From Azospirillum lipoferum 4B (lineage in GTDB: Bacteria; Pseudomonadota; Alphaproteobacteria; Azospirillales; Azospirillaceae), in the NCBI RefSeq assembly GCF_000283655.1, contig NC_016587.1:581254-645253 (forward strand): a DNA stretch of 64,000 bases, read 5' to 3'. A program made the translations under genes and the position numbers. Positions within the stretch are counted from its first letter, which is position 1. The number at the start of each line of letters is the position of its first letter. The notes beneath the pieces are model-generated. The model did no database searches. It was given only the letters and a program-made list of their open reading frames with translations, and was not told where the DNA came from. Positions 1 through 59,190 of the stretch are shown piece by piece.

Positions 1-3000
1 GACTATTCGGCCTCCGATACCGGCGTGACGGTCGATCTGGCGGCCGGCGCCGGCAGCGGCGGCGATGCCGAAGGCGACCTGCTGTCGGGGATCGAGAACC
101 TGACCGGCTCGGCCCATGACGACCGGCTGACCGGTGACGCGAACGCCAACCTGCTGGACGGCGGTGCGGGCGACGACACGCTGGCCGGGCTGGGCGGCGC
201 CGACACACTGACCGGCGGCGAGGGGACCGACACCGCCGACTATGCCGCGTCGGGTGCGGGCGTCACCGTCGATCTGGCGGCGGGCACCGGTTCCGGCGGC
301 GATGCCGAGGGCGACCGGCTGGCCGGGATCGAGAACGTCACCGGCTCCGCCGCCGCCGACAGCTTGTCGGGCGACGCGGGCGGCAACCGGCTGGACGGCG
401 GCAGCGGGGACGACTGGCTGTCCGGCGGCGCCGGGGCGGATACGCTGATCGGCGGCGACGGAATCGACAGCGCCGATTATGCGGCCTCGACCGGTGGCGT
501 CGACGTGAACCTCGCCGCCGGCACCGGTTCGGGCGGCGACGCCGAGGGCGACCTGCTGACGGGCATCGAGAACCTGACCGGCTCCGCCCATGACGACCGG
601 CTGACCGGCGATGCGAACGCCAACCGGCTGGACGGCGGCGCGGGCGACGACATCCTGGCCGGGCTGGGCGGGGCGGACACGCTGGTCGGCGGTGACGGCA
701 TCGACCTTGCCGATTACTCGGCCTCCGCCGCGGGTGTGGCGGTGGACCTGTCGACCGGGACCGGTCTCGGCGGCGACGCCGAGGGCGACCTGCTGTCGGG
801 GATCGAGAACCTGACCGGCTCGGCCCATGACGACCGGCTGACCGGTGACGCGAACGCCAACCTGCTGGACGGCGGTGCGGGCGACGACACGCTGGCCGGG
901 CTGGGCGGCGCCGACACACTGACCGGTGGCGAGGGGACCGACACCGCCGACTATGCCGCGTCGGGTGCGGGCGTCACCGTCGATCTGGCGGCGGGCACCG
1001 GTTCCGGCGGCGATGCCGAGGGCGACCGGCTGGCCGGGATCGAGAACGTCACCGGCTCCGCCGCCGCCGACAGCTTGTCGGGCGACGCGGGCGGCAACCG
1101 GCTGGACGGCGGCAGCGGGGACGACTGGCTGTCCGGCGGCGCCGGGGCGGATACGCTGATCGGCGGCGACGGAATCGACAGCGCCGATTATGCGGCTTCG
1201 ACCGGTGGCGTCGACGTGAACCTCGCCGCCGGCACCGGTTCGGGCGGCGATGCCGAGGGTGACGTGCTGACGGGGGTCGAGAACCTGTCCGGTTCCGATC
1301 ACGACGACCGGCTGACCGGCGATGCGAACGCCAACCGGCTCGACGGGCGCGGCGGCAACGACACGCTGGCCGGGCTGGGCGGGGCCGACACGCTGATCGG
1401 CGGCGACGGCATCGACACGGCGGAGTATCTGGCCTCGGCCGCCGCGGTGTCCGTCAGCCTGACGAGCGGCACCGGTTCAGGCGGCGACGCCCAGGGCGAC
1501 CGGCTGACCGGCGTCGAGAACCTGACCGGTTCCGCCTTCGGCGACCGGCTGACCGGCGACGGCGGCGCCAACATCCTCGACGGGGCGGGCGGCAACGACA
1601 CGCTGCTGGGCGGTGCCGGCGCCGACACGCTGATCGGCGGCGCCGGCAGCGATACCGCCGACTATTCGGCGTCCGGGGCGGCGGTGACGGTCGATCTGGC
1701 GGCCGGAACCGGGCTTGGCGGCACGGCGGAGGGGGATGTGCTGATCGGGGTGGAGAACCTGATCGGCTCCGCCCGCGCCGACCTGATGACCGGCGACGGG
1801 CAGGACAACACCCTGCGTGGAGGCGCGGGTGCGGACACGCTGACCGGCGGCGCCGGATCGGACACCGCCGACTACACCGGTTCGGCGGCGGGGGTGACGG
1901 TCAGCCTTGCCGACGGGACGGCGGAAAGCGGCGATGCCGCGGGCGACGTGCTGACCGGGATCGAGAACCTGACCGGCTCGGCCGCCGACGACCGGCTGAC
2001 CGGCGATGGCGAAGCCAACCGCCTGCGCGGCGGCGGCGGCAACGACACCCTGATCGGCGGGACGGGCGCCGACACGCTCAGCGGCGGGGCTGGGATCGAC
2101 ACCGCCGACTATTCGGCGTCCGACGCGGCGGTGTCGGTCAACCTCGCCACCGGCATCGGCCGCGGCGGGCATGCGGAGGGCGACCGTCTGGACGGGGTGG
2201 AGACCCTGATCGGCACCGGGCTCGGCGACAGCCTGACCGGCGACGGCGCCGCCAATTATCTGGACGGCCGCGGCGGCGCCGACAGCCTGTCCGGCGGGGC
2301 CGGCGACGACACCTTGCGGGTGCTGGACGACGGATTCGCCAGCCTGGACGGCGGCAGCGGTTTCGACACCCTGCGCTTCGAGGGGGAGCGGCTGGTGGTG
2401 ACCGGCGCCGATGCCGGCGGGGTTCACGGCCTGGAGACGATCGACCTCTCCCATTCCGGCCGCCAGGTCCTGATCCTGAACGAGCAGGGCATTCTCGCCG
2501 ACACCGGCGGCGCGCCGCTCTATGTCACCGGCAACCGCGACGACCTGGTGACCTTCAAGGAATCCGGCTGGAAGCGCGGCGGTGCCGAGACCGTCGGCTC
2601 CGTCCTCTACAACCAGTACAGCCGCGGCACGACCACGATCTATGTCCAGGATGGCGTGCGGATGTTCGGCGACCTCCTGGTCACCGGCACGGCGGGAGAC
2701 GACATCCTCACCGCGCCGTCGGGCGTCGGCCATGTGGTGGTGTTCGGCGAGGGCGGCGACGACACGGTGCGGTTCGGCGCCGGCTTCCGGCATGAGATCG
2801 CGCATCTGGTGCGGATCGACGACGACCTCCACGTCCTGTTCGACGCCCAGGGCGGTCCGGCCGGCGAGGACGGCTATGCCCGCGACCGCGTCACCATCAT
2901 GGGCCATTTCGCCGCCAACGGCGCCGCCGGGGCGGGGGACGGCAGCGTCCGCCGGATCGAGTTCGCCGACGGCGTGGTCTGGCCGGTATGGGGCGACGAC

Positions 3001-6000
3001 CTGCTGCTGGGCAGCACCGGCGACGACACCGTCGCCATCGAACCGGGGTTCGGCAGCCACAGCCTGCATGCCGATGCCGGCGTGAACGTCATCCGCTTCG
3101 GTGACGACGTGACCGCCGACGACCTGCGCCTGTCGCGCAAGGGCGACGACCTGGAGATCCGCATCGCCGGCACCGACCGCTCGCTGCTGCTCTTCAACCA
3201 TTTCTCGGCGGAGGCGCTGGCCGGCGCCGGCAATGGCGGGGTCGAGGCGGTCGAGTTGGCCGACGGCACGCGCTGGCGCGTGCGCGGCAGCGACGTGGTG
3301 ATCGGCAGCGGCGGCGACGACCGCGTGGTGTTCGGGTTGGATGGCGGGCAGACGACGCTCTACGGCAGCGCCGGGGCCGACACAATCGCCTTCGCGACGA
3401 CCATCGATCCCGACCGCATGCGGCTGAGCCGCGAGGGCGACGACCTGCGCCTGTCCTATGAGGGCAGCGGCGCGTCCTGGCTGATCGAGCAGCATTTCGA
3501 CGGCGATCCGGACGGCTACCGGACGATCCGCTTCGGCGACGGCACCGAATGGGCCATCGACAACACCCGCCTGATCGCCGGCACCGCCGCCGACGAGAGC
3601 GTGGAGCTGGGCGCCGGGCTGGGAGAGCGCGTGCTGGCGACCGGCGGCGGCAGCGACGGGCTGGTCCTGGCGGCCGGCATCGCCCCGTCGCAGGTGGCTC
3701 TGCGCCGCGACGGCGACAAGCTGGCGATCCAGATCGCCGGCAGCACCGACCGGGTGGTGGTGCTCAACCACTTCAACGGCACGGGCGCCGGCAACGGCGT
3801 GCTGCGCAGCCTGAGCTTCGCCGACGGCACGGTGTGGCCGCTGGATCCCGGCACCGGGTTCCGCATCGGCGGCGACACCGGCGACGTGTTCTCCTTCAAG
3901 CCGGGCGACGGCGCCGTCACGCTGTTCGCCGGCAAGGGCGTCGATACGCTGAACGTCGCCTCCACCATCGGCGCCGCCGCGCTGGGCTTCACCCGCCAGG
4001 GCGACGACCTGGTCATTTCGGTGAAGGGATCGGCGGACAAGGTCACGGTGCTGAACCATTTCGCCAGCGGCTGGGGCGCGTCGCTGCTCGAGAACGTCTA
4101 TGCCGGCGGGCGTTTCTGGAACCTGTCCGATCCGGCCATGCTGATCGGCGGGGCCGGCGACGACAGCTACACCCTGACGGTGGGCAGCGGCGCCATGTCG
4201 ATCCTGCCCGGCGGCGGCAACGACCGGATCGTCATCGGTCCCGGCATCGACAAGGCGAGCGTCACCATGCAGCGGGTGGGCGACGATCTGGTGATCGGCC
4301 TGCGCACGCTGCCCGACAAGCTGACCGTGCTGAACCACTTCTCCGGCGGGGCAAGCGGCGGGGTTCACACGCTGCGCTTCATCGACGGCGACACCTGGAA
4401 CATCTGGGGCGCCAGTCTGATGGTCGGGACCAGCGCCACCGACACCTTCACCGCCGAACCCGGCATCGGCCACGTCTCGCTCTTCCCCGGCGGCGGCAGC
4501 GACCGCCTGCGGCTGGGCACCGGCTTCGACAGCCTGAACACGCTGGTGCGGCGGGACGGCGACGATCTCGAGATCGTGATGCGCGACGGCAGCGATTCGG
4601 TCAAGGTCCTGAACCACTTCCTGGGCAACGAGGCGCGCGACATCGCCTTCGCCGACGGCAAGGTCTGGACGGTCGGCGGCCCCAATGCCCGCATCGGCAC
4701 CGACGGCGCCGACCGCTTCGTCCTGTCGCCCGGCATGGGGAATGTCGTGATCTATGGCGGCGGCGGCCAAGGCGGCGACCGCATCGAGGTGGCGCCCGGC
4801 GTCGACCCGTCCACCGTCCGGCTGACCCGGGTCGGCAACGACCTGCGGGTCACCGCCGGCACCGACAGCATGACCATCGTCAACCAGTTCGCCACCGGCG
4901 GGGTGGTGACGATCCCCGAGATCGTCTTCCCCAACGGCGTCGTCTGGCCGATTGCCGGCACCAACGTCTTCATCAGCGGCGCCGGGGCGGAAACGATCCC
5001 CGCGGGTCCGATGTTCATCTATCCCGGTGCGCCCGGCCAGCGTCTGTCCATCGACGCCGACCCGGGCAAGACCCGCGTCGTGCGTGTCGGCAACGACCTG
5101 CATCTGAGCATCGTCGGCCAGCCGAACGAGATGATCGTCGTCAACCACTTCGCCATGAACGGCATCGGCGATCTGGTCTTCGACAACGGCACCACCTGGA
5201 ACATCCAGGGCGGCCGGGTGCTGATCGGCGGCACCGGCCATGACGAATTCGTGATCCAGCGCGGCATGGGCGACGTCATCGTCTATCCCGACAGCATCGG
5301 CGACGACACCCTTCGCTTCGTCGACACGGTGGACGGATCCAAGATCCGCGTGGCGCGCGTCGGCGACAATCTGCGCATCACCATCGACGGCACCGCGGAC
5401 GCGCTGACCATCGTCAACCATTTCGCCGGCACGCCGATGGAGTCGCTTCAGCGTCCCGACGGCTCCGTCCTGCCGCTGACCGGCGACGGGCTGCTGTTCG
5501 GCAGCCCCGGCGGAACCGTCTTCCTGGTCGGCGAGGACAGCGGGTCGAAGACCATCTATGCCGAGGGCGGCGACCGCGTGGTCTTCGACGACATCGACAG
5601 CACGGAGGTGCGGCTGATCCGCACCGGCTCCGACCTGCAGATCTTCATCGACCGCACGCAGCAGGTGGTGACCGTCCTCAACTATTTCGGCGGCGTCGGC
5701 CAGCTGGAGTTCCCCAACGGACGGACCTTCGACCTGTCGTCGCCCTACACGCTGATCGGCGGCGGCGGCGGCGACCGCTTCACCATCGGCAGGACCGGGC
5801 CGGCCAGCCAGATCATCCATGCCGGCGGCGGCGGCAGCCAGATCGACTTCGGCCCCGACGTCTCGCCCGGCGACGTGACCCTGCGGCAGGACGGCGTCGA
5901 TCTGGTCGTGGTCTTCATCGGCAGCGGGCGCACGGTGCGCGTGGTCAACCACTTCACCGCACCCACCGACGGCCTGTCGCGCGGGCTCGACGCCATCACC

Positions 6001-9000
6001 TTCAGCGGCGGCGTCACGCTGGACGTCTTCGGCGAGAACGTGATGTTCGGCCAGCAGGGGACGGACGACTTCACCGTGTTTCCCGGCCAGGGTCGGCAAT
6101 ACATCTTCGCCGGCGGCGGCACCGACCGGCTGACTTTCGGTCCCGGCGTCGATCCGGCGCTGGTGCGGATGGAGCGGGACGGCGTCAACCTGCACATCTT
6201 CACCGACGACGGCAGCATCGATCTGGTGGCGGTCAACCATTTCGGCCCCACCGGGGTGGCGGGCAGCGGCTCCGGCCTTGCCACCGTCGCCTATGCGGAC
6301 GGGCAGAACTGGACGGTCGCCGGCAACGGCATCCTGATCGGCAGCCTCGGCAACAACAGCTACAGCGTGGCGACCAACAGCGGCCCGGTGACGATCCACC
6401 CGGCGGGCGAGGACAACCGGCTGGCCTTCACCGCGGGCATTCCCCCAACGAATTTGCGGCTGGTGCGCGAGCATGACGACCTGCGCATCCTGTCGGCCGA
6501 CGGCACGGTCAACGTGCTGGTGGTCAACCATTTCCGGAACCAGCTGGATCAGGTCACCTTCTCGGCCGGCGCGCCGTGGAATCTGGGGGCGGGCAACGTC
6601 TTCATCGGCGGCGACGGGCCGTCGGTCTTCCGCTTCGACAACATCGCCACCGACCTGATGGTGTTCCCCGGCAGCGGCGACATCGTGGGGATGCCCAGCG
6701 GCCTCGACTGGAAGGACGTGGTGCTGACGCGCTCCGGCGGCGACCTGATCGTGCAGGTCCGCGCCACCGGGCGGCAGGTCCGCATCGTCAATCATTTCTC
6801 CGCCAGCGACGGCACCGGCGGGTTGGCCGGGCTGAACTTTGCCGACGGCACGACCATGCCGCTGGGTGAGCTGGCGGTGCTGGGCGGCGGCAGCGGCGAC
6901 CTGCTGACCGGGACGGCCACCGAAGACGTGATGCTGGGCCAGGACGGCGACGACCGGCTGAGCGGCGGCGGCGGCAACGACACGCTGATCAGCGGCATCG
7001 GCAACGACACGCTGGACGGCGGCGCCGGCAACGACGTCTATGTCTACCGCATCGGCGACGGCCGCGATTACATCCTGGACAGCGCCGGCTTCGACCGGAT
7101 CGAGTTCGGTCCCGGCATCGGCCGCGGCGACCTCTACTTCGCGCGCTTCGGCAACGATCTCCACATCCGCTTCCGCGGCCGGCCGGCCGACGAGATCGTG
7201 GTGACCGGCCGCTTCAACATGGCGGGCGACGGAACCAGCTTCGTGGAGCGGCTGGCCTTCGCCGACGGCAGCAGTTTCGAGCTGACCCGCACCGACATCG
7301 CGCTGGAGACGGTGGCGACCAACGCCAGTGAATACCTGCAGGGCTACAATGTCGGCGACCGGATCGAGGGAACGGCCGGCAACGACACGATCCTGGGATA
7401 TGCCGGCAACGACACGCTGATCGGCGGCACCGGATCGGACTCGATCGACGGAGGGATGGGCGACGACCTGATCGACGGCCGCGACGATCCCGGCACCGAT
7501 GGCGCACGGGACGTGATCCTGGGCCGCGACGGCAACGACACCATCCTGGCCGGCGGCGGATCCGATGTCATCCTTGGCGGTACCGGCGACGACAGCATCG
7601 ACGGTGGCGGCGGCAACGACAGCATCGATGGCGAGGACGGCAACGACAGCATCGACGGCGGCACCGGTGCCGACACCATCTATGGCCGGGACGGCAACGA
7701 CACGCTGGCCGGCGGCGCCGGCAACGACACGCTCTACAGCGGTGCCGGCGACGACCTGATCCGTTACGGCGGCGGCAGCGACACCATCGCCAACGAGGAC
7801 GGCCGCGACATTCTGGAGATCGGGCCGGGCTTCGCCCGCGCCGACCTCTACTTCGCGCGCTTCGGCAACGATCTCTACATCCGCTTCCGCAATTCGGCGG
7901 AACAGATCGTCCTGACCGGCCGCTTCAGCGGGGCGGGCGACGGGACCAGCTTCGTGCAGACGCTGCGCTTCGCCGACGGCACGGACTATGCCGTCACAGC
8001 GCAGGATCTGGCGCTGGAAACGGTGGCGACCGACGCCAGCGAGACGCTGGAAGGCTACAATGTCGGCGACATCATCCTCGGCCAGGGCGGCAACGACACC
8101 ATTCACGGCTATACCGGCAACGACAGCCTGGACGGCGGGAGCGGCAACGACCGCCTCTATGCCGGCAGCGGCGACGATGTCCTGGAGGGCGGCGACGGAG
8201 CAGACGCCCTGTATGGCGACATCGGCAACGACCTGCTTTCCGGCGGCACCGGCAACGACAGCCTCTATGGCGAGGCGGGAGCCGATTCCCTGTCCGGTGG
8301 CGACGGCGCCGACTTCCTGTCGGGTGGCGACGGCAATGACGGTCTGACCGGCGGGGCGGGCAACGACACGCTGGATGGCGGGGACGGCAACGACCTGCTG
8401 GAGGGCGGTGACGGCGACGACAGCCTGCGGGCCGGCGACGGCGACGATACGCTGGTGGGCGGCAACGGCACCGACACCCTGTCGACCGGGGCCGGCAACG
8501 ACACCATCCGCTTCGATGGCGGGCGCGAGACCATCACCAACGAAGGCGGCGCCGACGTGCTGGAGATCGGCGGCGGGCTGACCAAGGCCGATCTCTATTA
8601 CGCCCGCTTCGGCAACGACCTGTATCTGCGCTTCCGCAATCGCAGCGACGAAGTGATTCTGACCGGCCGCTTCAGCGGCGACAGCGACGGGTCGAGCTAT
8701 GTCCAGACCGTGCTGTTCGCCAATGGCGACCGCGCCGATCTGACCGATCCAGCCCTGGTGCTGGAAACGGTGGCGAGCGAACTCAACGACTCGCTGGAGG
8801 GTTACAACGCCAACGACACCATCAGCAGCCTGGGCGGCAGCGACACCATCCGTGGCTATGGCGGCGACGACCTGCTGGCTGGCGGCACCGGCAACGACGT
8901 GCTGTTCGGCGGAACCGGGAACGACCGTCTGAACGGCGGCGGCGGGGCCGACCGTCTGGAAGGCGGCGACGGCAACGACACGCTGGAAGGCGGAGACGAT

Positions 9001-12000
9001 GCCGACCTGCAGTATGGCGGTGCGGGCGACGATTTGATCCTCGGCGGCGGCGGCAACGATTACATGCAGGGCGGTGACGGGGCAGACAGCCTGACCGGCG
9101 ACGTCGGCAACGACACGCTGTACGGCGATGCCGGCGACGACAGCCTGCAAGGCGGCGACGGCAACGACTATCTTCAGGGCGACGACGGCGCCGACACGGT
9201 GGAAGGCGGGGCGGGCACCAACACCGTCCTGACCGGGCTGGGCGACGACGTGATCCGCTATGACGGCGGGCGCGACACCATCACCAACGAGGGCGGCAAC
9301 GACGTTCTGGTGATCCGCACCGCATTGAGGCGGGAGGACCTCTATTTCGCCCGCTTCGGCAACGACCTGTATCTGCGCTTCCGCGGCGCGGCCGACGAGA
9401 TCGTTCTGAAGGACCGCTTCAACGGCGCCGGCGATGGGACGAGCTATGTCCAGCGCATCCTGTTCGCCGACGGGCAGGAGGTGGACCTGACCGACCCGAC
9501 GCTGAAGCTGGAAACCCTGGCGACCGCGGCGTGGGAGACGCTGGAGGGCTACAATGTCGGCGACCTCATCCAGGGCGTGGGCGGCAACGACAGCATCCAC
9601 GGCTATGGCGGGAACGACACGCTGGATGGCGGGGCCGGCAACGACACGCTCTATGGCGATGCGGGCAATGACACGCTGATCGGCGGGGCGGGCGACGACC
9701 GGCTGGAGGGCGCCGACGCCGACGACCTGCTGCAGGGCGGCGACGGCAACGACAGCCTGACCGGCGGGGCCGGCGACGACACGCTGACCGGCGGCGCCGG
9801 TAAAGACCAGTATTACGGCGGCGACGGCAACGACCTGATCGACAACCGGGACGACACCGGCACCGGCGCCGCGCTGAATGTCGCCTATGGCGAGGCGGGG
9901 AACGACACCATCCTGGGCGGCGATGCGGGCGAGACCTTCGCCGGTGGAGACGGCGACGACCGGCTGGAGGGCAATGCCGGCAACGATTGGCTGGAGGGCA
10001 ACGCCGGGAACGACAGCCTGCAAGGCGGCGGCGGCGACGACAACCTTCAGGGCGGCGATGGCGCTGACACTCTGGAAGGCGGGGCGGGCACCAACACCGT
10101 CCTGGCCGGGCTGGGCGACGATGTGATCCGCTATGACGGCGGGCGCGACACCATCACCAACGAGGGCGGCAACGACGTTCTGGTGATCCGCACCGCTTTG
10201 AGGCGGGAGGACCTCTATTTCGCCCGCTTCGGCAACGACCTGTATCTGCGCTTCCGCGGCGCGGCCGACGAGATCGTTCTGAAGGACCGCTTCAACGGGG
10301 CCGGCGATGGGGCGAGCTATGTCCAGCGCATCCTGTTCGCCGACGGGCAGGAGGTGGACCTGACCGATCCGACGCTGAAGCTGGAAACCCTGGCGACCAC
10401 GGCGTCGGAAAAGCTGGAGGGCTACAATGTCGGCGACCTGATCCAGGGCGTGGACGGCAACGACACGATCCATGGCTATGGCGGGAACGACACGCTGGAT
10501 GGCGGGGCCGGCAACGACACGCTCTATGGCGATGCGGGCAACGACACGCTGATCGGCGGCACCGGTGTCGACCGGCTGGAGGGCGGCGACGGCCTCGACA
10601 CGCTGGACGGTGGCGAGGGGGACGACACGCTCTATGGCGATGCCGGCGACGACACGCTGATCGGCGGGGCCGGCAACAACACCCTCTATGGCGGAACGGG
10701 CAGCAACGTCATCCGTTTCGATGGCGGCCAGGACATCGTCTACAACACCGGCGGCAGCGACGTCATCGAACTGGATGAGTCCTTCGACAAGGCTGCGCTC
10801 TATTTCTCCCGTTTCGGCAATGATCTCTATGTGCGTTTCACCGGCCGGACGGATCAGATCATCGTCAAGGACCGCTTCAACGGCGCCGGCGACGGTGCGG
10901 CCTATGCGCAGACCCTGCTGTTCGCCGATGGATCGCGGGAGGATCTGACCCGCAAGGATCTGGTGATCCAGACGATCGGCGGCGCTGGAGGCGACAAGCT
11001 GGAGGGGTACAATGTCGGCGACACCCTCGACGGACAGGCCGGCAACGACACCGTTTACGGTTATGGTGGCGACGACACGCTGACAGGCGGAACCGATCAC
11101 GATCTGCTGGATGGTGGCGATGGCTCAGACATCGTCGATGGCGGGGAGGGCAACGATCTGGCTTTCGGCGGTGGTGGAAATGATACCGTTGCGGGCGGAA
11201 ACGGCGAGGACCGCCTTTGGGGCGATGGTATTTCTCCCACTGGGAATGAGGTGATCACCATTCGGATTCGAATGGGTGGACACAGTGTCAGTGGAAATTG
11301 GCCCCGAACCATCGTCACTCTCGATGGTCGGGTGATTATGGACGAGACGGTCTACGTCCATTATTCGCATCTCAGTCCTTATCGGGTTGAAACGATTTAT
11401 AATGGAGAACTGCGGGATTATAAGTTCACGTTAAGGGATATCAGTCAGGCAAGTCAGCTTGTCATCAGTGTGTACGATTATACGCATGGACGCGAAAGGC
11501 ATAGCACGGCCGTGTTCATCGCCGGCATTGAGGTCGATGGCTATCCTGTCGCTGCCGGGTTTTATGTTTGGGAGTCCTACGCTGCAGGCGTATGGGGGCT
11601 GAATTCCCTCCTGCCCTCCCCATCCGCGACCGAACCTGTCGGCAACGACTCTCTGACGGGTGGCGCCGGCAACGACGCGCTCAGCGGCGGCCAGGGCGAC
11701 GACAGCCTGACGGGCGACAGCGGCAACGACACCATCCTCGGCGGCGCCGGCAACGACACCATCCTCGGCGGAGCCGGCTCCGACGAAATGCATGGCGGCG
11801 CCGGCAACGACCAGATCGACAACCGTGACGACCCGAACGCCGCCGGCATCAACGACCTGTCCTACGGCGGTACTGGTACCGACACCCTCTACGGCGGTGG
11901 CGGCATCGACGTCGCCTATGGCGGGGCCGGCGACGACCTGATCGACGGCGGCGGCGGCGCCGATTACCTCTATGGCGAGGACGGCGCGGACTCCGTCCTC

Positions 12001-15000
12001 GGCGGCGCCGGGGCCGACTATCTCTACGGTCAGGCCGGCAACGACACTCTGGACGGCGGGGCCGGCAACGACGCCATCGACGGCGGGGCCGGCAACGACC
12101 TGATCCGCTTCATCTCCGGTGACGGTGTGGACAGCATCGCCGGCGGCGGCGGCAACGACACGCTCGAACTGGGAGCCGGGCTGACGCTGGAGCAGATGTA
12201 TCTCTCGCGCATCGGCACCGACCTGCACCTGATCTTCCGCGACACCGGCGACCGCATCGTCCTGGCCGGCCGCTTCAGCGGCGACGGCGACGGCGCGAAT
12301 TTCGTACAGACGGTTAAGTTCGCGGATGGACGCACCATCGACCTGTCGGCCCAGACCATCGTGATGGAAACCCATGGGCAGGCGGCGGCGGAGACCCTGT
12401 ACGGCTACAAGGACGACGACAGCATCGATGGCGGCGGCGGCAACGACACCCTCTATGGCTATGCCGGCGACGACCTGCTGACCGGAGGGGACGGCAACGA
12501 CGCGCTGTATGGCGGGACCGGCAACGACACGCTGTCGGGCGGTGCCGGCGCCGATTACTTCGAAGGCGGCGACGGTGCCGACAGCCTGTCCGGCGGCGCC
12601 GACAACGACACGCTGTATGGTGGGGCCGGCAACGACGCGCTGTCGGGCGGCGCGGGCGCCAACACCATCGACGGCGGCGCCGGCAATGACAGCATCCTCT
12701 ACGAAGGCGGCACCGACACCATCGTCGGCGGCGGCGGCAACGACGAGCTGGTCTTCGGCGAGGACTACACCCAGGCGGGCCTGCGGCTGGAACGCTTCGG
12801 CAAGGATCTGCACCTGGTCTTCGACGACCTGGCCAAGCGGATCGTCGTCGCCAACCGCTTCAGCGCGGTCGGCAACGGCGAGGGGACGAACTATGTGCAG
12901 ACCCTGCGCTTCGCCGACGGCGGTACGATGGACCTGTCACGCACCGATCTGGCGATCGCCACCCGCGACAGCGACGTCGGGCATGAGCTGGCGGGCTACA
13001 ACGTCGGCGATGTGATCCGCGGCAACGGCGGCACCGACGCTATCTATGGCTATGGCGGCAACGACACGCTGTATGGCGGCGCCGGCGCCGACGAGATGCG
13101 TGGCGGCGACGGCGACGACCTGATCGACAGCCGGGACGAGACGGCCGGCGGCGACGTTGCCTATGGCGAGGCCGGCAACGACACGCTCTATGGCGGTGCC
13201 GCCAACGATGCGCTCCATGGCGGCGACGGCGAAGACCTGATCCTGGGCGGCGCTGGCAACGACAGCATCGAGGGCAATGCCGGCAGGGACAGCCTGAGCG
13301 GCGGGGCGGGCGTCGACAGCCTGCACGGCGGGGCGGACGACGATACCCTTCATGGCGATGACGGCAACGATTACCTGTCCGGCGATGCCGGCGACGACAT
13401 CTTGGCCGGCGGGGCCGGGGCCGACACGCTGGATGGCGGTATCGGCGCGGACATGCTGTCCGGCGGCGACGATGCCGATACGCTGGACGGCAAGGACGGC
13501 AACGACACGCTGGCCGGCGGTGCCGGCGCGAACTGGATCGTGACGGGGGCGGGCGACGACCTCGTGCTCTACCAGGGCGGTGCCGACACGGTGGTCGGCG
13601 GCGGCGGCAACGACACGCTGTCCTTCGGCGACGGCTTCAGCCGCGACGACCTGCGGTTCGAACGCTACGGCAACAACCTGCATGTCCGCTTCGACGGCAA
13701 GCCCGACCGGATCGTCGTCGCCAACCGCTTCAGCGGAGCCGGCAACGGCGCCAACTACCTGCAGACGCTGCTGTTCGCCGACGGACGAACCGTCGACCTG
13801 AGCGATCCGGGCCTCGTCATCGACACCCGGGACGATGCGACCGCCCGCACGCTGGAAGGCTATGCCGCATCGGACACCATCCGCGGCGGCGGCGGCGACG
13901 ATTCCATCCACGGCTATGGCGGCGACGACAGCCTGTATGGCGGGGCGGGATGGGATCTGGTCCGCGGCGGGGCCGGCAACGACCTGATCGACAGCAGCGA
14001 CGACGACGCCAGCCACGACAGCCTCTATGGCGAGGACGGCAACGACACCGTGCGCGGCGGCGGCGGCGGCGACGCCCTTTATGGCGATGCCGGCAACGAC
14101 CGGATCGAGGGGCTGGCCGGGACCGACTCCATGATGGGAGGCACCGGCGACGACACGATGGAGGGCGGTGCCGGCAACGACACCCAGTTCGGCGGCGACG
14201 GGGCCGACAGCCTCGATGGCGGGGCGGACAACGACTATCTGATGGGCGATGCCGGTGCCGACGAGCTTTCGGGGGGCCTGGGTCACGACACGCTCTATGG
14301 CGGGGCCGACGGCGACCGCCTGTTCGGCGGCGACGGCAACGACATCCTCTTTGGCGATGCCGGCAACGACACCCTGATGGGCGGCGCCGGCGACGATGCC
14401 ATCGACACCGGCGCCGGGGACGATCTGGTCGTCTATGACGGCGGCCGGGACACCGTCCTGGGCGGCGGCGGCAACGACACGCTGCTGTTCGGCGAAGGCT
14501 TCGCGGCCGACCAGCTCTATTTTGCGCGATTCGACAACAATCTGGTGTTGCGCTTCCGCGACCGGCCGGAACAGGTGGTCATCTCCAACCGCTTCAGCGG
14601 CGGGGGAGACGGCGCCAACTATCTGCAGACCGTCCGCTTCCACGACGGAACGGAGGTGCTGCTGTCCGATTCCGCACTGCGGCTGGAAACGGTCGGCGGC
14701 GACGGTGACGAGGCTCTGGCCGGCTATGTCAACGGCGACCGGATCGACGGGCAGGGCGGCAAGGATGTGCTGGCCGGCTACGGCGGCAACGACACGCTGG
14801 TGGGCGGCACCGGCAGCGACAGACTATCGGGCGGCGACGGTGACGACCTGCTGGACAGCCGGGACGACCTTGCCGGCTCAGGCGACAATGACGTCGCCTA
14901 TGGCGAGGCCGGCAACGACACCGTGCTGGGCGGCGGCGGCAACGACAGCCTGTCGGGCGGCGACGGTGACGACAGCCTGGACGGCGGCGTTGGCGTCGAT

Positions 15001-16647
15001 ATCCTGGTGGGCGGCGCAGGACAGGACACATTGGAGGGCGGTGACGGCAACGATGTGCTTGCAGGCGACGCCGACGATGACCGGCTTTCCGGCGGGGCCG
15101 GCGCCGACACGCTGGTGGGTGGCACCGGACGGGATGTGCTGGAAGGCGGCGACGGCAACGACAGTCTGGTCGGCGATGCCGGGGCGGGAAGCGGCACCTA
15201 CATGTTCGATACGATGAAGACGGTGTTCAGCGGCGCCTTCTCCGTCACCTGGAACACGCAGGATCATGTTCCCCGCCTGCTCGGCGACGTGAACGGCGAT
15301 GGCCGGGCGGACATCGTCGGCTTCTCCAGCACGTCGGTCCAGATCGCCCTGGGGCGGGCGGACGGCAGCTTCGGACCGGTTCAGGTCGCCTACAACGGGG
15401 AATTCACGCCCACCTATGGCGGCTGGAACAGTCAGAACGTCAATCCCCGGCAACTGGCCGACGTGAACGGCGACGGCCGGATGGACATCGTCGGCTTCGC
15501 GAGCGGCGTGGTGCGGGTGGCCCAGGGGCAGGCGGATGGAACCTTCGCGACCGCGCAGACGGCGCTGAGCGGGACTCTGACCTCCGGCACGAGCTGGACC
15601 AGCATGGGGCAATATCCCCGCCTGCTCGGGGATGTGAACGGCGACGGCCGGGCGGACATCGTCGGCTTCTCCAGCACCAGCGTGGTGACCGCGCTGGGGC
15701 AGGCGGACGGAACCTTCGGGTCCGTCACTCTCGCCTACAACGGCAGCTTCACGACCGGCTATGGCTGGACCAACAACAATGACTATCCCCGTCTTCTGGG
15801 TGACGTCGATGGCGACGGCATGGCCGACATCGTCGGTTTCGGTGGCAATCAGGTCTTCGTCGCCCGTGGCCGGGCCGACGGCACCTTCGCCCCGATGAAG
15901 GTCGCCTACAGCGACAACTACACCAAGTACACGGGCGGCTGGACGACCCAGGACCAGTATCCCCGCCAACTGGCGGACGTGAACGGCGATGGCCGGATGG
16001 ACATCGTCGGCTTCGCCAGCAACGGGGCCTACGTGTCGTTCGGTCAGGCGGACGGCACCTTCAGCCGGATTCGCCAGGGCACCGACGACTATGGCTATGG
16101 TGGCTGGAATACCCAGAACACCTATCCGCGGCAGACCGCCGATGTCGACGGCGACGGGCGTGCCGACATCGTCGGCTTCGCCTCCAACAGCGTCGTGGTG
16201 TCCAGATCGGTCCTCAACGACGATACGCTGAGCGGCGGGGCCGGGGACGACACGCTGGGCGGCGGGCTGGGCGACGATGTCTACCGGTTCGGTCGCGGAG
16301 ACGGCCGGGACCGCATCGTCGAGAATGACAGCGACATCGGCACCGACCGGCTGGTGTTCGAGGCCGGGATCGACGCCCGCCAGCTGTGGTTCACCAAGAC
16401 GGGCAACGACCTGGAGGTGCAGGTGGTCGGCACGGCGGACAAGGTGACCATCGCCGACTGGTACAGCGGCGCCGAGCATCACATGGATAGCATCGAGACG
16501 GCCGACGGGGCCGTGCTGCTGGATTCCATGGTGGCGGGGTTGGTTCAGGCCATGGCAGGGTTTGCCCCGCCAGAAGCCGGGACGATGAGCATCGAGCCCG
16601 ATCTCTATCCGTCCGTCGATCATGCCATCACAGCCGCATGGCGGTGA
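1..16647 (+). CDS. Giant RTX (haemolysin-type Ca2+-binding repeat) secreted protein, 5'-truncated by the window edge
   Basis: The frame is open from base 1 to a TGA at 16645-16647, at least 5548 codons. The residues before the first possible start already match the repeat unit, so the true start lies upstream. Modules in order: about ten units of roughly 79 aa (1-2300) containing VTVDLAAGTG-like, GIENLTGS-like and GGxGxD segments; an array of about fifteen units of 80-100 aa ending in VLNHF/VVNHF-like motifs (2690-6870); ten RTX blocks each carrying an LYFARFGNDL-like segment (6880-15190); a lower-GC globular insert (about 11215-11640); six FG-GAP/VCBS-like units (15200-16215); and a last RTX block with a C-terminus containing LVQAMAGFAPP. 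GGxGxD repeats are known to bind Ca2+ after type I secretion. An extracellular adhesin or matrix protein is my inference. No type I exporter genes lie in the window. Confidence 0.93.
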   Translation, partial: DYSASDTGVTVDLAAGAGSGGDAEGDLLSGIENLTGSAHDDRLTGDANANLLDGGAGDDTLAGLGGADTLTGGEGTDTADYAASGAGVTVDLAAGTGSGGDAEGDRLAGIENVTGSAAADSLSGDAGGNRLDGGSGDDWLSGGAGADTLIGGDGIDSADYAASTGGVDVNLAAGTGSGGDAEGDLLTGIENLTGSAHDDRLTGDANANRLDGGAGDDILAGLGGADTLVGGDGIDLADYSASAAGVAVDLSTGTGLGGDAEGDLLSGIENLTGSAHDDRLTGDANANLLDGGAGDDTLAGLGGADTLTGGEGTDTADYAASGAGVTVDLAAGTGSGGDAEGDRLAGIENVTGSAAADSLSGDAGGNRLDGGSGDDWLSGGAGADTLIGGDGIDSADYAASTGGVDVNLAAGTGSGGDAEGDVLTGVENLSGSDHDDRLTGDANANRLDGRGGNDTLAGLGGADTLIGGDGIDTAEYLASAAAVSVSLTSGTGSGGDAQGDRLTGVENLTGSAFGDRLTGDGGANILDGAGGNDTLLGGAGADTLIGGAGSDTADYSASGAAVTVDLAAGTGLGGTAEGDVLIGVENLIGSARADLMTGDGQDNTLRGGAGADTLTGGAGSDTADYTGSAAGVTVSLADGTAESGDAAGDVLTGIENLTGSAADDRLTGDGEANRLRGGGGNDTLIGGTGADTLSGGAGIDTADYSASDAAVSVNLATGIGRGGHAEGDRLDGVETLIGTGLGDSLTGDGAANYLDGRGGADSLSGGAGDDTLRVLDDGFASLDGGSGFDTLRFEGERLVVTGADAGGVHGLETIDLSHSGRQVLILNEQGILADTGGAPLYVTGNRDDLVTFKESGWKRGGAETVGSVLYNQYSRGTTTIYVQDGVRMFGDLLVTGTAGDDILTAPSGVGHVVVFGEGGDDTVRFGAGFRHEIAHLVRIDDDLHVLFDAQGGPAGEDGYARDRVTIMGHFAANGAAGAGDGSVRRIEFADGVVWPVWGDDLLLGSTGDDTVAIEPGFGSHSLHADAGVNVIRFGDDVTADDLRLSRKGDDLEIRIAGTDRSLLLFNHFSAEALAGAGNGGVEAVELADGTRWRVRGSDVVIGSGGDDRVVFGLDGGQTTLYGSAGADTIAFATTIDPDRMRLSREGDDLRLSYEGSGASWLIEQHFDGDPDGYRTIRFGDGTEWAIDNTRLIAGTAADESVELGAGLGERVLATGGGSDGLVLAAGIAPSQVALRRDGDKLAIQIAGSTDRVVVLNHFNGTGAGNGVLRSLSFADGTVWPLDPGTGFRIGGDTGDVFSFKPGDGAVTLFAGKGVDTLNVASTIGAAALGFTRQGDDLVISVKGSADKVTVLNHFASGWGASLLENVYAGGRFWNLSDPAMLIGGAGDDSYTLTVGSGAMSILPGGGNDRIVIGPGIDKASVTMQRVGDDLVIGLRTLPDKLTVLNHFSGGASGGVHTLRFIDGDTWNIWGASLMVGTSATDTFTAEPGIGHVSLFPGGGSDRLRLGTGFDSLNTLVRRDGDDLEIVMRDGSDSVKVLNHFLGNEARDIAFADGKVWTVGGPNARIGTDGADRFVLSPGMGNVVIYGGGGQGGDRIEVAPGVDPSTVRLTRVGNDLRVTAGTDSMTIVNQFATGGVVTIPEIVFPNGVVWPIAGTNVFISGAGAETIPAGPMFIYPGAPGQRLSIDADPGKTRVVRVGNDLHLSIVGQPNEMIVVNHFAMNGIGDLVFDNGTTWNIQGGRVLIGGTGHDEFVIQRGMGDVIVYPDSIGDDTLRFVDTVDGSKIRVARVGDNLRITIDGTADALTIVNHFAGTPMESLQRPDGSVLPLTGDGLLFGSPGGTVFLVGEDSGSKTIYAEGGDRVVFDDIDSTEVRLIRTGSDLQIFIDRTQQVVTVLNYFGGVGQLEFPNGRTFDLSSPYTLIGGGGGDRFTIGRTGPASQIIHAGGGGSQIDFGPDVSPGDVTLRQDGVDLVVVFIGSGRTVRVVNHFTAPTDGLSRGLDAITFSGGVTLDVFGENVMFGQQGTDDFTVFPGQGRQYIFAGGGTDRLTFGPGVDPALVRMERDGVNLHIFTDDGSIDLVAVNHFGPTGVAGSGSGLATVAYADGQNWTVAGNGILIGSLGNNSYSVATNSGPVTIHPAGEDNRLAFTAGIPPTNLRLVREHDDLRILSADGTVNVLVVNHFRNQLDQVTFSAGAPWNLGAGNVFIGGDGPSVFRFDNIATDLMVFPGSGDIVGMPSGLDWKDVVLTRSGGDLIVQVRATGRQVRIVNHFSASDGTGGLAGLNFADGTTMPLGELAVLGGGSGDLLTGTATEDVMLGQDGDDRLSGGGGNDTLISGIGNDTLDGGAGNDVYVYRIGDGRDYILDSAGFDRIEFGPGIGRGDLYFARFGNDLHIRFRGRPADEIVVTGRFNMAGDGTSFVERLAFADGSSFELTRTDIALETVATNASEYLQGYNVGDRIEGTAGNDTILGYAGNDTLIGGTGSDSIDGGMGDDLIDGRDDPGTDGARDVILGRDGNDTILAGGGSDVILGGTGDDSIDGGGGNDSIDGEDGNDSIDGGTGADTIYGRDGNDTLAGGAGNDTLYSGAGDDLIRYGGGSDTIANEDGRDILEIGPGFARADLYFARFGNDLYIRFRNSAEQIVLTGRFSGAGDGTSFVQTLRFADGTDYAVTAQDLALETVATDASETLEGYNVGDIILGQGGNDTIHGYTGNDSLDGGSGNDRLYAGSGDDVLEGGDGADALYGDIGNDLLSGGTGNDSLYGEAGADSLSGGDGADFLSGGDGNDGLTGGAGNDTLDGGDGNDLLEGGDGDDSLRAGDGDDTLVGGNGTDTLSTGAGNDTIRFDGGRETITNEGGADVLEIGGGLTKADLYYARFGNDLYLRFRNRSDEVILTGRFSGDSDGSSYVQTVLFANGDRADLTDPALVLETVASELNDSLEGYNANDTISSLGGSDTIRGYGGDDLLAGGTGNDVLFGGTGNDRLNGGGGADRLEGGDGNDTLEGGDDADLQYGGAGDDLILGGGGNDYMQGGDGADSLTGDVGNDTLYGDAGDDSLQGGDGNDYLQGDDGADTVEGGAGTNTVLTGLGDDVIRYDGGRDTITNEGGNDVLVIRTALRREDLYFARFGNDLYLRFRGAADEIVLKDRFNGAGDGTSYVQRILFADGQEVDLTDPTLKLETLATAAWETLEGYNVGDLIQGVGGNDSIHGYGGNDTLDGGAGNDTLYGDAGNDTLIGGAGDDRLEGADADDLLQGGDGNDSLTGGAGDDTLTGGAGKDQYYGGDGNDLIDNRDDTGTGAALNVAYGEAGNDTILGGDAGETFAGGDGDDRLEGNAGNDWLEGNAGNDSLQGGGGDDNLQGGDGADTLEGGAGTNTVLAGLGDDVIRYDGGRDTITNEGGNDVLVIRTALRREDLYFARFGNDLYLRFRGAADEIVLKDRFNGAGDGASYVQRILFADGQEVDLTDPTLKLETLATTASEKLEGYNVGDLIQGVDGNDTIHGYGGNDTLDGGAGNDTLYGDAGNDTLIGGTGVDRLEGGDGLDTLDGGEGDDTLYGDAGDDTLIGGAGNNTLYGGTGSNVIRFDGGQDIVYNTGGSDVIELDESFDKAALYFSRFGNDLYVRFTGRTDQIIVKDRFNGAGDGAAYAQTLLFADGSREDLTRKDLVIQTIGGAGGDKLEGYNVGDTLDGQAGNDTVYGYGGDDTLTGGTDHDLLDGGDGSDIVDGGEGNDLAFGGGGNDTVAGGNGEDRLWGDGISPTGNEVITIRIRMGGHSVSGNWPRTIVTLDGRVIMDETVYVHYSHLSPYRVETIYNGELRDYKFTLRDISQASQLVISVYDYTHGRERHSTAVFIAGIEVDGYPVAAGFYVWESYAAGVWGLNSLLPSPSATEPVGNDSLTGGAGNDALSGGQGDDSLTGDSGNDTILGGAGNDTILGGAGSDEMHGGAGNDQIDNRDDPNAAGINDLSYGGTGTDTLYGGGGIDVAYGGAGDDLIDGGGGADYLYGEDGADSVLGGAGADYLYGQAGNDTLDGGAGNDAIDGGAGNDLIRFISGDGVDSIAGGGGNDTLELGAGLTLEQMYLSRIGTDLHLIFRDTGDRIVLAGRFSGDGDGANFVQTVKFADGRTIDLSAQTIVMETHGQAAAETLYGYKDDDSIDGGGGNDTLYGYAGDDLLTGGDGNDALYGGTGNDTLSGGAGADYFEGGDGADSLSGGADNDTLYGGAGNDALSGGAGANTIDGGAGNDSILYEGGTDTIVGGGGNDELVFGEDYTQAGLRLERFGKDLHLVFDDLAKRIVVANRFSAVGNGEGTNYVQTLRFADGGTMDLSRTDLAIATRDSDVGHELAGYNVGDVIRGNGGTDAIYGYGGNDTLYGGAGADEMRGGDGDDLIDSRDETAGGDVAYGEAGNDTLYGGAANDALHGGDGEDLILGGAGNDSIEGNAGRDSLSGGAGVDSLHGGADDDTLHGDDGNDYLSGDAGDDILAGGAGADTLDGGIGADMLSGGDDADTLDGKDGNDTLAGGAGANWIVTGAGDDLVLYQGGADTVVGGGGNDTLSFGDGFSRDDLRFERYGNNLHVRFDGKPDRIVVANRFSGAGNGANYLQTLLFADGRTVDLSDPGLVIDTRDDATARTLEGYAASDTIRGGGGDDSIHGYGGDDSLYGGAGWDLVRGGAGNDLIDSSDDDASHDSLYGEDGNDTVRGGGGGDALYGDAGNDRIEGLAGTDSMMGGTGDDTMEGGAGNDTQFGGDGADSLDGGADNDYLMGDAGADELSGGLGHDTLYGGADGDRLFGGDGNDILFGDAGNDTLMGGAGDDAIDTGAGDDLVVYDGGRDTVLGGGGNDTLLFGEGFAADQLYFARFDNNLVLRFRDRPEQVVISNRFSGGGDGANYLQTVRFHDGTEVLLSDSALRLETVGGDGDEALAGYVNGDRIDGQGGKDVLAGYGGNDTLVGGTGSDRLSGGDGDDLLDSRDDLAGSGDNDVAYGEAGNDTVLGGGGNDSLSGGDGDDSLDGGVGVDILVGGAGQDTLEGGDGNDVLAGDADDDRLSGGAGADTLVGGTGRDVLEGGDGNDSLVGDAGAGSGTYMFDTMKTVFSGAFSVTWNTQDHVPRLLGDVNGDGRADIVGFSSTSVQIALGRADGSFGPVQVAYNGEFTPTYGGWNSQNVNPRQLADVNGDGRMDIVGFASGVVRVAQGQADGTFATAQTALSGTLTSGTSWTSMGQYPRLLGDVNGDGRADIVGFSSTSVVTALGQADGTFGSVTLAYNGSFTTGYGWTNNNDYPRLLGDVDGDGMADIVGFGGNQVFVARGRADGTFAPMKVAYSDNYTKYTGGWTTQDQYPRQLADVNGDGRMDIVGFASNGAYVSFGQADGTFSRIRQGTDDYGYGGWNTQNTYPRQTADVDGDGRADIVGFASNSVVVSRSVLNDDTLSGGAGDDTLGGGLGDDVYRFGRGDGRDRIVENDSDIGTDRLVFEAGIDARQLWFTKTGNDLEVQVVGTADKVTIADWYSGAEHHMDSIETADGAVLLDSMVAGLVQAMAGFAPPEAGTMSIEPDLYPSVDHAITAAWR
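61..1250 (+). repeat. Higher-order 711-bp repeat inside the RTX gene (three 237-bp units)
   Basis: The N-terminal units are 237 bp (79 codons). Every third unit is nearly identical: bases 74-537 match bases 785-1248 with only about two or three differences seen by eye, an offset of exactly 711 bp. Neighbouring units within the triplet are clearly more diverged at the base level. This points to recent unequal crossing-over or gene conversion of a three-unit block. Because the frame is preserved, copy number could vary without breaking the protein. Confidence 0.85.
2690..6870 (+). repeat. Array of about fifteen 80-100-aa units ending in NHF-like motifs
   Basis: Units follow a loose pattern: GTxxDxF, a glycine-rich turn such as FPGGGSDRL, a V.L.R.GDDL.I strand pair, VTVLNHF or VRVVNHF, then LxFADGxxW and an IG-type start of the next unit. 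Fifteen such motifs can be counted, including the variants IMGHF, EQHF, VNQF and LNYF. The GDDLxI...V.V.NHF part resembles the haemolysin-type calcium-binding-related domain (HCBP_related, PF06594). Here it is repeated back to back with very few GGxGxD nonapeptides between, unlike the 3' half of the gene. A stalk of beta-roll or beta-solenoid type is inferred. Confidence 0.75.
9200..9690 (+). repeat. RTX module duplicated 873 bp downstream (10073-10563)
   Basis: Bases from about 9200 to 9690 recur at 10073-10563 with only scattered differences, for example one mismatch across 9301-9360 against 10174-10233. The offset of 873 bp is a multiple of three and equals one complete RTX block of about 291 residues (segment with LYFARFGNDL, hydrophobic strand region, then GGxGxD repeats). 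Other blocks of the same type in the gene are clearly more diverged, so this copy pair is recent. Confidence 0.8.
11215..11640 (+). other. AT-richer non-RTX insert domain in the giant RTX gene, possibly CBM60-like
   Basis: About 140 codons between two GGxGxD stretches lack glycine repeats and have visibly lower GC than the gene around them. The protein begins near NEVITIRIRMGG, continues with NWPRTIVTLDGRVI and DYKFTLRD, and ends near FIAGIEVDGYPV. The strand pattern and the opening ITIR..G.....NWP...V.LDG resemble the Ca2+-dependent xylan-binding module CBM60 (PF16841); that match is from memory and not confirmed. The flanking RTX codons (11080-11215) are also less GC-biased. A domain gained by transfer, possibly carbohydrate-binding, is inferred. 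Confidence 0.55.
15200..16215 (+). repeat. Six FG-GAP/VCBS-like repeats of about 57 aa near the C-terminus of the RTX protein
   Basis: Six units each contain YPRLLGDVNGDGRADIVGF or a close variant, near 15277, 15449, 15620, 15788, 15964 and 16129, with a spacing of about 57 codons. The DxNGDGRxD core is the calcium-binding loop of FG-GAP/VCBS repeats, known from integrin-type beta-propellers and bacterial surface proteins. Six to seven such units commonly close one propeller. Here the propeller would sit between RTX blocks just ahead of the secretion signal. Confidence 0.85.
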
Positions 16648-20082: not shown

Positions 20083-20102
20083 GTGGGGCTACTGCGGCTG
20101 CC

Positions 20103-20149
20103 CCCCTCCCTAACCCTCCCCCGCCCAGCGGGGGAGGGTTAGGGAGGGG
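20103..20149. repeat. Dispersed GC-rich palindrome, copy 1 (perfect 21-bp arms)
   Basis: Arms at 20103-20123 and 20129-20149 are perfect inverted copies around the 5-base loop CCCAG. The same core (CCCTCCCCCGCCCAGCGGGG and flanks) recurs at 51844-51950 and 59086-59190, and a related one begins at 63968. It lies between pobA and the Lin0512-family gene. No T-run follows, so it is a dispersed repeat rather than an obvious intrinsic terminator, though its transcript would fold strongly. Confidence 0.8.
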
Positions 20150-20259
20150 AAAAACCCGCTGCTTCCACCCCCCGAAAATCCCACCCCCGCCCCCTGGCCC
20201 TCCCCGCCTCCGCGCGCCATCATCCTCCTCACCCGACACCGACAGGAAAGCCCGGCGCG

Positions 20260-51843: not shown

Positions 51844-51950
51844 GCCCCCTCCCCATCCCTCCCCCTCTTCGAGGGAGAGGGGGCAGGAGCTTTGAAGGAG
51901 CGCAGCGGAGTTCCCTCCCCCGCCCAGCGGGGGAGGGTTAGGGTGGGGGC
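51844..51950. repeat. Dispersed GC-rich palindromic element, copy 2
   Basis: Within the gene-free stretch 51616-51979, bases 51844-51950 form an inverted pair of arms (GCCCCCTCCCC... and ...GGGTGGGGGC) enclosing two hairpins: one around CTCTTCGAG and one around the CCCCCGCCCAGCGGGG core shared with copies at 20103 and 59086. The size and structure are like a small palindromic (MITE- or BIME-like) element. Bases 51616-51843 show no gene. Confidence 0.75.
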
Positions 51951-59085: not shown

Positions 59086-59190
59086 CCCCCACCTATCCTC
59101 CCCCGCTGGGCGGGGGAGGGACTGCCGCTGCCTTTCCGATCAAGCACTTATCCCCTCCCCCGCCCAGCGGGGGAGGGTTAGGGTGGGGGC
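59086..59190. repeat. Dispersed GC-rich palindromic element, copy 3
   Basis: Two hairpins, around CCCCCGCTGGGCGGGGG (from 59101) and around the mirror-image CCCCCGCCCAGCGGGGG (about 59157-59175), are joined by about 40 bases. The outer arms are inverted copies of each other, CCCCCACCTATCC and GGGTTAGGGTGGGGG, differing by a small indel. The right arm is the same as in copy 2. The element lies between convergent chemoreceptor and tyrC genes. Confidence 0.8.

Follow-up and report, generated by a model that had tools for sequence, protein, structure and literature searches.

Introduction

According to the available part of the report on AhLap, a single chain of 5047 amino acids (aa) from Aeromonas hydrophila, ligand-binding domains of repeats-in-toxin (RTX) adhesins emerge from split domains, one of them from the C-terminal RTX roll (PMC12077191). 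AhLap itself is described there as a giant chain with type I export and a carbohydrate-binding module, whose ligand-binding domains sit within other domains, one of them inside the C-terminal RTX roll (PMC12077191). The locus analysed here, a stretch of 64,000 nucleotides of Azospirillum lipoferum 4B (NC_016587.1, positions 581,254 to 645,253; hereafter the window), begins with most of a gene for a giant RTX protein that appears to resemble AhLap in all these respects. As far as that part of the AhLap report allows comparison, the Azospirillum protein differs in that no retention motif is seen, a Big_9/cadherin pair replaces the long immunoglobulin (Ig) stalk, the rod consists of RTX/HCBP_related repeats, the exporter is of the HlyB type and the lectin has another fold.

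To our knowledge, the surfaces recognised by plant-associated Azospirillum, and the means of recognition, are largely open. No literature title on Azospirillum RTX proteins or adhesins, lectins, type I secretion or FG-GAP repeats names the giant protein, in a search of titles only that left subscription journals mostly uncovered. It is a real, conserved Azospirillum protein and most likely an adhesin, and what is new and unusual is that its two recognition heads are mosaic. The explanation that we favour with reasonable confidence, judging from sequence comparison, is a type-I-secreted giant adhesin with recognition heads exchanged between species.

A conserved gene with mosaic modules

The earlier note had proposed a single frame of at least 5548 residues, and this holds: 5548 codons are open in one frame that runs off the left edge of the window (Table 1). 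The array of NHF-motif units in this frame was matched in 13 of 82 family genomes, all of one genus, 11 matches being strong and near full length and two weak. Eight copies with both ends (G022, G042, G046, G004, G009, G040 and the plasmid records of Azospirillum sp. B510 and of an A. brasilense strain) are unbroken frames of 5,948-6,588 aa. The plasmid records share identical coordinates with G023 and G010, as do L055 and L056 with G024 and G022, and each was counted once. The G024 copy runs off a contig end, that of G005 is split by a frameshift and that of G032 is fragmented; G032 was left out, and ten copies entered the comparison. With the gene present in 11 relatives, and its frame unbroken at full length in eight, the assembly artefact that the earlier note had named as a possible refutation is ruled out. 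The ratio of nonsynonymous to synonymous divergence (dN/dS) against relatives is 0.09-0.39 across the gene where computable (the insert described below is not computable against three of five copies), and because the frame is kept at such ratios it is more than a product of chance.

The B510 copy (pAB510a, NC_013855.1, 282885-302540; 655 kDa, no cysteine) and that of A. brasilense 2020WEIHUA_K (NZ_CP059450.1, 952352-970240, minus strand), both unannotated in the records used, have the same module order end to end as the window gene; relatives with this order, for which the earlier note knew no described protein, thus exist in Azospirillum. Each has a different version of a short insert; the lectin near the C-terminus is present in B510 and absent from the A. 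brasilense copy. In G001, the nearest genome compared, the region just downstream of the gene is 91-93% identical, and the giant gene was not found (no NHF match, no PF06594).

Both modules, insert and lectin, are mosaic between species, a result that the earlier note could not have seen, and the rod is conserved. Among the six lectin-bearing copies, mean pairwise identity falls from 84% along the chain to 32-45% in the insert core, and among three brasilense-type copies from 92% to 41-54%. Between G022 and G042, identity is 96% in the NHF array and 88-92% in the flanking 500 aa on each side of the insert, but 29% in the insert itself, where G042 and B510 reach 70% and G022 and G046 67%. The A. 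brasilense strain and G009 likewise share 98% in the NHF array and 43% in the insert. Synonymous divergence (dS) in the insert is at least 1.8 or not computable, versus 0.17-0.78 elsewhere.

Tree comparisons point the same way. The insert data reject a pairing of G022 with G042 (approximately unbiased (AU) test, p 1.7e-49), and the NHF data reject G042 with B510 (AU p 8e-41) and G022 with G046 (1e-6); the insert tree supports G022 with G046, the window with G024, and G009 with G040. G042 is closer to B510 than to G022 in 15 of 90 segments of 60 aa, and by at least 10 points in only four, two on the insert and two in the lectin, the stretch between the modules mostly tracking G022. These conflicting trees and the segment scan therefore indicate that the history of the two heads is separate from that of the rod.

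Such mosaicism is evidence of exchange, or of old versions having been kept for a long time, and alone does not show selection for new ligands; recombination between species would be the simplest cause of the differing modules. G042 and B510 share both insert type and lectin lineage, a weak sign, among six lectin-bearing copies, that the two heads are coupled. A silent store of inserts was not found: each of ten Azospirillum genomes has exactly one insert match, in the giant gene, within a search at E 0.001 that a very divergent copy could escape. Hypermutation was also considered and rejected. G005 and the A. brasilense strain have the same insert (100% identity across 145 aa) beside flanking DNA that is 95.7% identical, and constant fast change therefore does not fit.

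Relatives of the two modules

The non-RTX insert that had been noticed from the sequence was confirmed, and structure prediction, as the earlier note had proposed for single modules, gives it a CBM60-like fold. CBM60 modules bind carbohydrates in a calcium-dependent manner, xylan by their Pfam name. The ND...DRNL stretch of the relative L093 is, by eye, not conserved in the window insert. In L093, from genus g13, a true CBM60 follows the first RTX repeats of an RTX protein of about 1600 aa, which by eye has another CBM60-like stretch as well; similar matches occur in four further genomes from genus g13.

The second module comprises six FG-GAP units, the number given in the earlier note, with calcium loops 55-58 aa apart, and is homologous to the fungal N-acetylglucosamine (GlcNAc) lectin PVL (E 2.6e-62). 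With the fungal propeller lectins PVL and AAL2 it shares clear sequence homology, a calcium loop per blade and a Trp per site. It differs from them in having six blades instead of seven, in the replacement of most Asn/Asp and His residues at the GlcNAc site, and in being part of a giant chain. All six lectin-bearing copies have six units, and the window model has 24 strands; the seven blades of PVL were not found.

UmbA4 of the Streptomyces umbrella toxins, part of a toxin particle, is also a six-bladed propeller lectin, related to the window module by fold (26% identity), a relation that the sequence search did not recover. One may ask whether the Azospirillum protein is an antagonism system whose propeller locates rival bacteria, as the umbrella particles do. 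This we hold to be highly improbable: a common fold shows no function, no Pfam toxin domain was matched in the window chain or in two full-length N-termini, and NCBIfam RTX-toxin models remain far below their cut-offs on the repeats (best 252.7 versus 1000 bits).

The pocket segments of the lectin are more variable than the rest of it. Predator evasion is known to give mosaic patterns of a similar kind, and the sharpest variation lies in modules that look exposed. It could then be argued that an exposed module diversifies to escape a binder, phage or plant immune receptor, with its ligand unchanged. We regard such escape as quite improbable, since the varying domains are kin of carbohydrate-binding domains and the lectin varies in its pocket segments, as in UmbA4, where pocket positions diverge between blades in the available part of the source (PMC13274773).

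Such propellers are also encoded by other, shorter frames of Azospirillum, namely in G022 (contig C21, 1380 aa), G004 (C61, 1152 aa), G014 (C68, 703 aa) and G007 (C100). PVL-like modules at 49-50% identity are found in other bacteria, for example on plasmids of Neorhizobium galegae (NZ_HG938354.1) and Acaryochloris (NZ_CP071718.1); 36 plasmid records match, and in a sample of 385 genomes of the class 11 do so.

Export and genomic neighbourhood

The upstream exporter that the earlier note proposed to look for was found in part of the sample, in that HlyB/HlyD genes adjoin five of the nine copies with upstream sequence (G022, G046, G042, G004 and B510) and were not found in the 8-20 kb of flank of the other four. 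Every lectin-bearing copy with known upstream sequence, four in all, has them just upstream, as has one lectin-free copy. Directly upstream of the B510 gene, and on its strand, are an HlyD adaptor and an ABC exporter that has a C39-like domain, the two scoring above the HlyD and HlyB NCBIfam cut-offs. Against TIGR03375, the LssB model, which we take to represent LapB-type exporters, the B510 exporter scores 573.7 bits (cut-off 693.1), and the HlyB model fits far better. The LssB/LapB-type exporter expected of a LapA-type retained adhesin was not found in B510.

With up to 8 kb compared, all ten pairs of the five exporter-bearing copies show upstream DNA similarity over 3.4-3.9 kb, about the length of the two exporter genes. 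Downstream (1.4-4 kb compared), 0.6-1.4 kb is common to G046, G024 and B510 only, and G005 and the A. brasilense strain share 3.9 kb. The gene, with the exporter where present, therefore occupies several neighbourhoods.

Proposed function

In the explanation that we favour, an exchangeable-headed adhesin, the HlyB/HlyD exporter would secrete the giant protein (probably about 6,500 aa), calcium outside the cell would fold the RTX nonapeptides into beta-rolls, and these together with the HCBP_related units would give the chain the shape of a long, stiff rod. From interrupted RTX blocks two recognition modules would bud, a CBM60-like beta-sandwich in mid-chain and, towards the C-terminus, a lectin propeller of six blades; they may bind glycans of a partner surface, be it plant wall, fungus, other bacteria or the cell's own matrix. 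Species that keep the rod and carry different module versions could in this way have their binding retargeted. Because both modules have sugar-binding kin and both interrupt RTX blocks, glycan adhesion is the best reading of sequence and models. The earlier picture of a surface adhesin or matrix protein with stalk, binding and propeller parts thus stands for its three-part division, both suspected binding parts having sugar-binding relatives (CBM60 for the insert, PVL/UmbA for the propeller), with adhesion itself as the conditional part. We further suggest, tentatively and with rather less than even confidence, that the two heads (about 130 and 340 of 6,500 residues) are exchanged as separate cassettes on a fixed rod, perhaps in matched pairs, so that the choice of partner, a plant, fungal or bacterial surface, would be transferable.

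LapA-type retained adhesins have an N-terminal retention module with a [TP]AAG cleavage motif. No Pfam retention-module match was seen in the two N-termini scanned, which hold RTX repeats and the Big_9/cadherin pair. The protein might instead be a calcium-dependent matrix or surface-layer scaffold, anchored through its sugar modules to the cell's own exopolysaccharide, with module differences tracking the polysaccharide type of the strain. Its composition would suit this, the 5548-aa part in the window having 121 GGxGxD motifs, no cysteine and a calculated isoelectric point of 4.05 (the floor of the program), as would the absence of the [TP]AAG motif; a changing self-polysaccharide would equally explain variable modules. 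Nevertheless, there are two different recognition modules, both positioned like the budding ligand-binding domains of RTX adhesins, and G004 and the three aligned brasilense-type copies lack the lectin, a part that a scaffold has no obvious need to drop. We therefore judge the scaffold unlikely.

A number of observations weigh against the adhesin explanation. The comparison covered ten copies. The [TP]AAG motif was not found in the first 300 aa of any of the eight full-length copies. The exporter pair was not found in 8-20 kb of flank in the four brasilense-type genomes (G009, G040, G005 and the A. brasilense strain), whose best HlyB relatives elsewhere are 37-39% identical; G001, which lacks the giant gene, has a relative at 61%. 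As for positive selection, dS in the insert is saturated or not computable. The insert data are compatible with the six lipoferum-type copies as a clade (p 0.22) and with the three brasilense-type copies as one (p 0.24), the insert tree does not support the pairing of G042 with B510 well, and the window, G022 and G042 are not resolved by the NHF tree.

The relatives of the modules also leave room for doubt. The window insert scores 15.5 bits against Pfam CBM60 (PF16841, cut-off 28.2), slightly less than against two unrelated families that are below cut-off as well. CBM60 matches at E up to 1 occur in three of ten insert versions, among which the lowest E, 0.0079, belongs to the bacterial Ig family Big_15, and the AF2 model of the insert, built from three sequences, has a modest confidence score (pLDDT 67). 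The GlcNAc site of AAL2 is made of Asn/Asp, Trp and His in the available part of its description (PMC4483166); by eye, the window propeller has Asn/Asp in two of six sites, His in at most one and Trp in all six.

One rod with several alternative heads amounts to a natural experiment, in which the binding of about ten small modules could reveal each ligand and whether partner range tracks the head. The comparison also links the propellers of PVL and the umbrella-toxin lectins to a giant adhesin-like protein.

Features of the gene and minor observations

The chain is composed, by sequence models, of two repeat families, RTX rolls (PF00353) and HCBP_related units (PF06594), and two single modules. 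The five distinct repeat classes counted earlier were too many, because the NHF units and the LYFARFGNDL segments both belong to PF06594. The individual arrays were described correctly: the units of about 79 aa correspond to a 237-bp period in Tandem Repeats Finder (7.6 copies, 1-1798; overlapping arrays of 237, 447 and 474 bp reach 2312), fifteen NHF-like motifs lie at aa 968-2264, spaced 87-98 aa, and ten LYFARFGNDL-type units, each followed by GRF, DRF or NRF, extend from aa 2380 to the last GRF-type motif at aa 4863. A stricter LYFARFGNDL pattern recovers nine of the ten. Among the long stretches of the chain, the NHF array is the one most conserved between relatives. Of the families proposed for searching, PF00353 was matched at E values as low as 1.5e-179, PF06594 at 3e-76 (NHF array) and PF13517 at 1.2e-16, with CBM60 below cut-off as given above. 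The expected RTX tail is present; its secretion signal is presumed from position and conservation, and no Pfam or NCBIfam model matched the C-terminal 48 aa.

Table 1. Coordinates of the giant gene and its parts in the window
Feature	Position (nt)	Strand	Basis
3' part of the giant RTX protein gene (5548 aa; ~6,500 expected for the whole)	1..16647	+	Frame and full-length relatives; 5' end outside the window
RTX units of ~79 aa (PF00353)	1..2310	+	Pfam, Tandem Repeats Finder
Short linker between RTX units and NHF array	2311..2670	+	Boundaries set by analyst
NHF array, 15 degenerate RTX/HCBP_related (PF06594) units	2671..6900	+	Motif scan, Pfam, conservation
RTX beta-roll blocks alternating with HCBP_related (LYFARFGNDL...GRF) units 1-6	6901..11220	+	Pfam, motifs
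Predicted CBM60-like module inside an RTX block	11239..11649 (aa 3747-3883)	+	Fold; hypervariable, mosaic between species
RTX blocks alternating with HCBP_related units 7-10	11650..15180	+	Pfam, motifs
Six-bladed PVL/UmbA-type beta-propeller lectin (FG-GAP_3) within the last RTX block	15190..16215	+	Pfam, PVL homology, model
Last RTX beta-roll and HCBP_related domain	16216..16500	+	Frame, Pfam
C-terminal 48 aa and stop (16647), presumed type I secretion signal	16501..16647	+	Position, conservation

A third, milder variable patch lies in RTX repeats at residues 4661-4760 (nt 13981-14280), with many length differences between copies. An antisense frame of 3207 aa inside the giant gene (1477-11100, minus strand) is taken as a high-GC shadow. 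Elsewhere in the window, a G/C-rich, nearly palindromic repeat some 36-50 bp long (20101-20152, 51913-51948, 59153-59188 and 59097-59120) looks like a repetitive extragenic palindromic (REP)-type element and accounts for most of the 97 matches of the window in G001.
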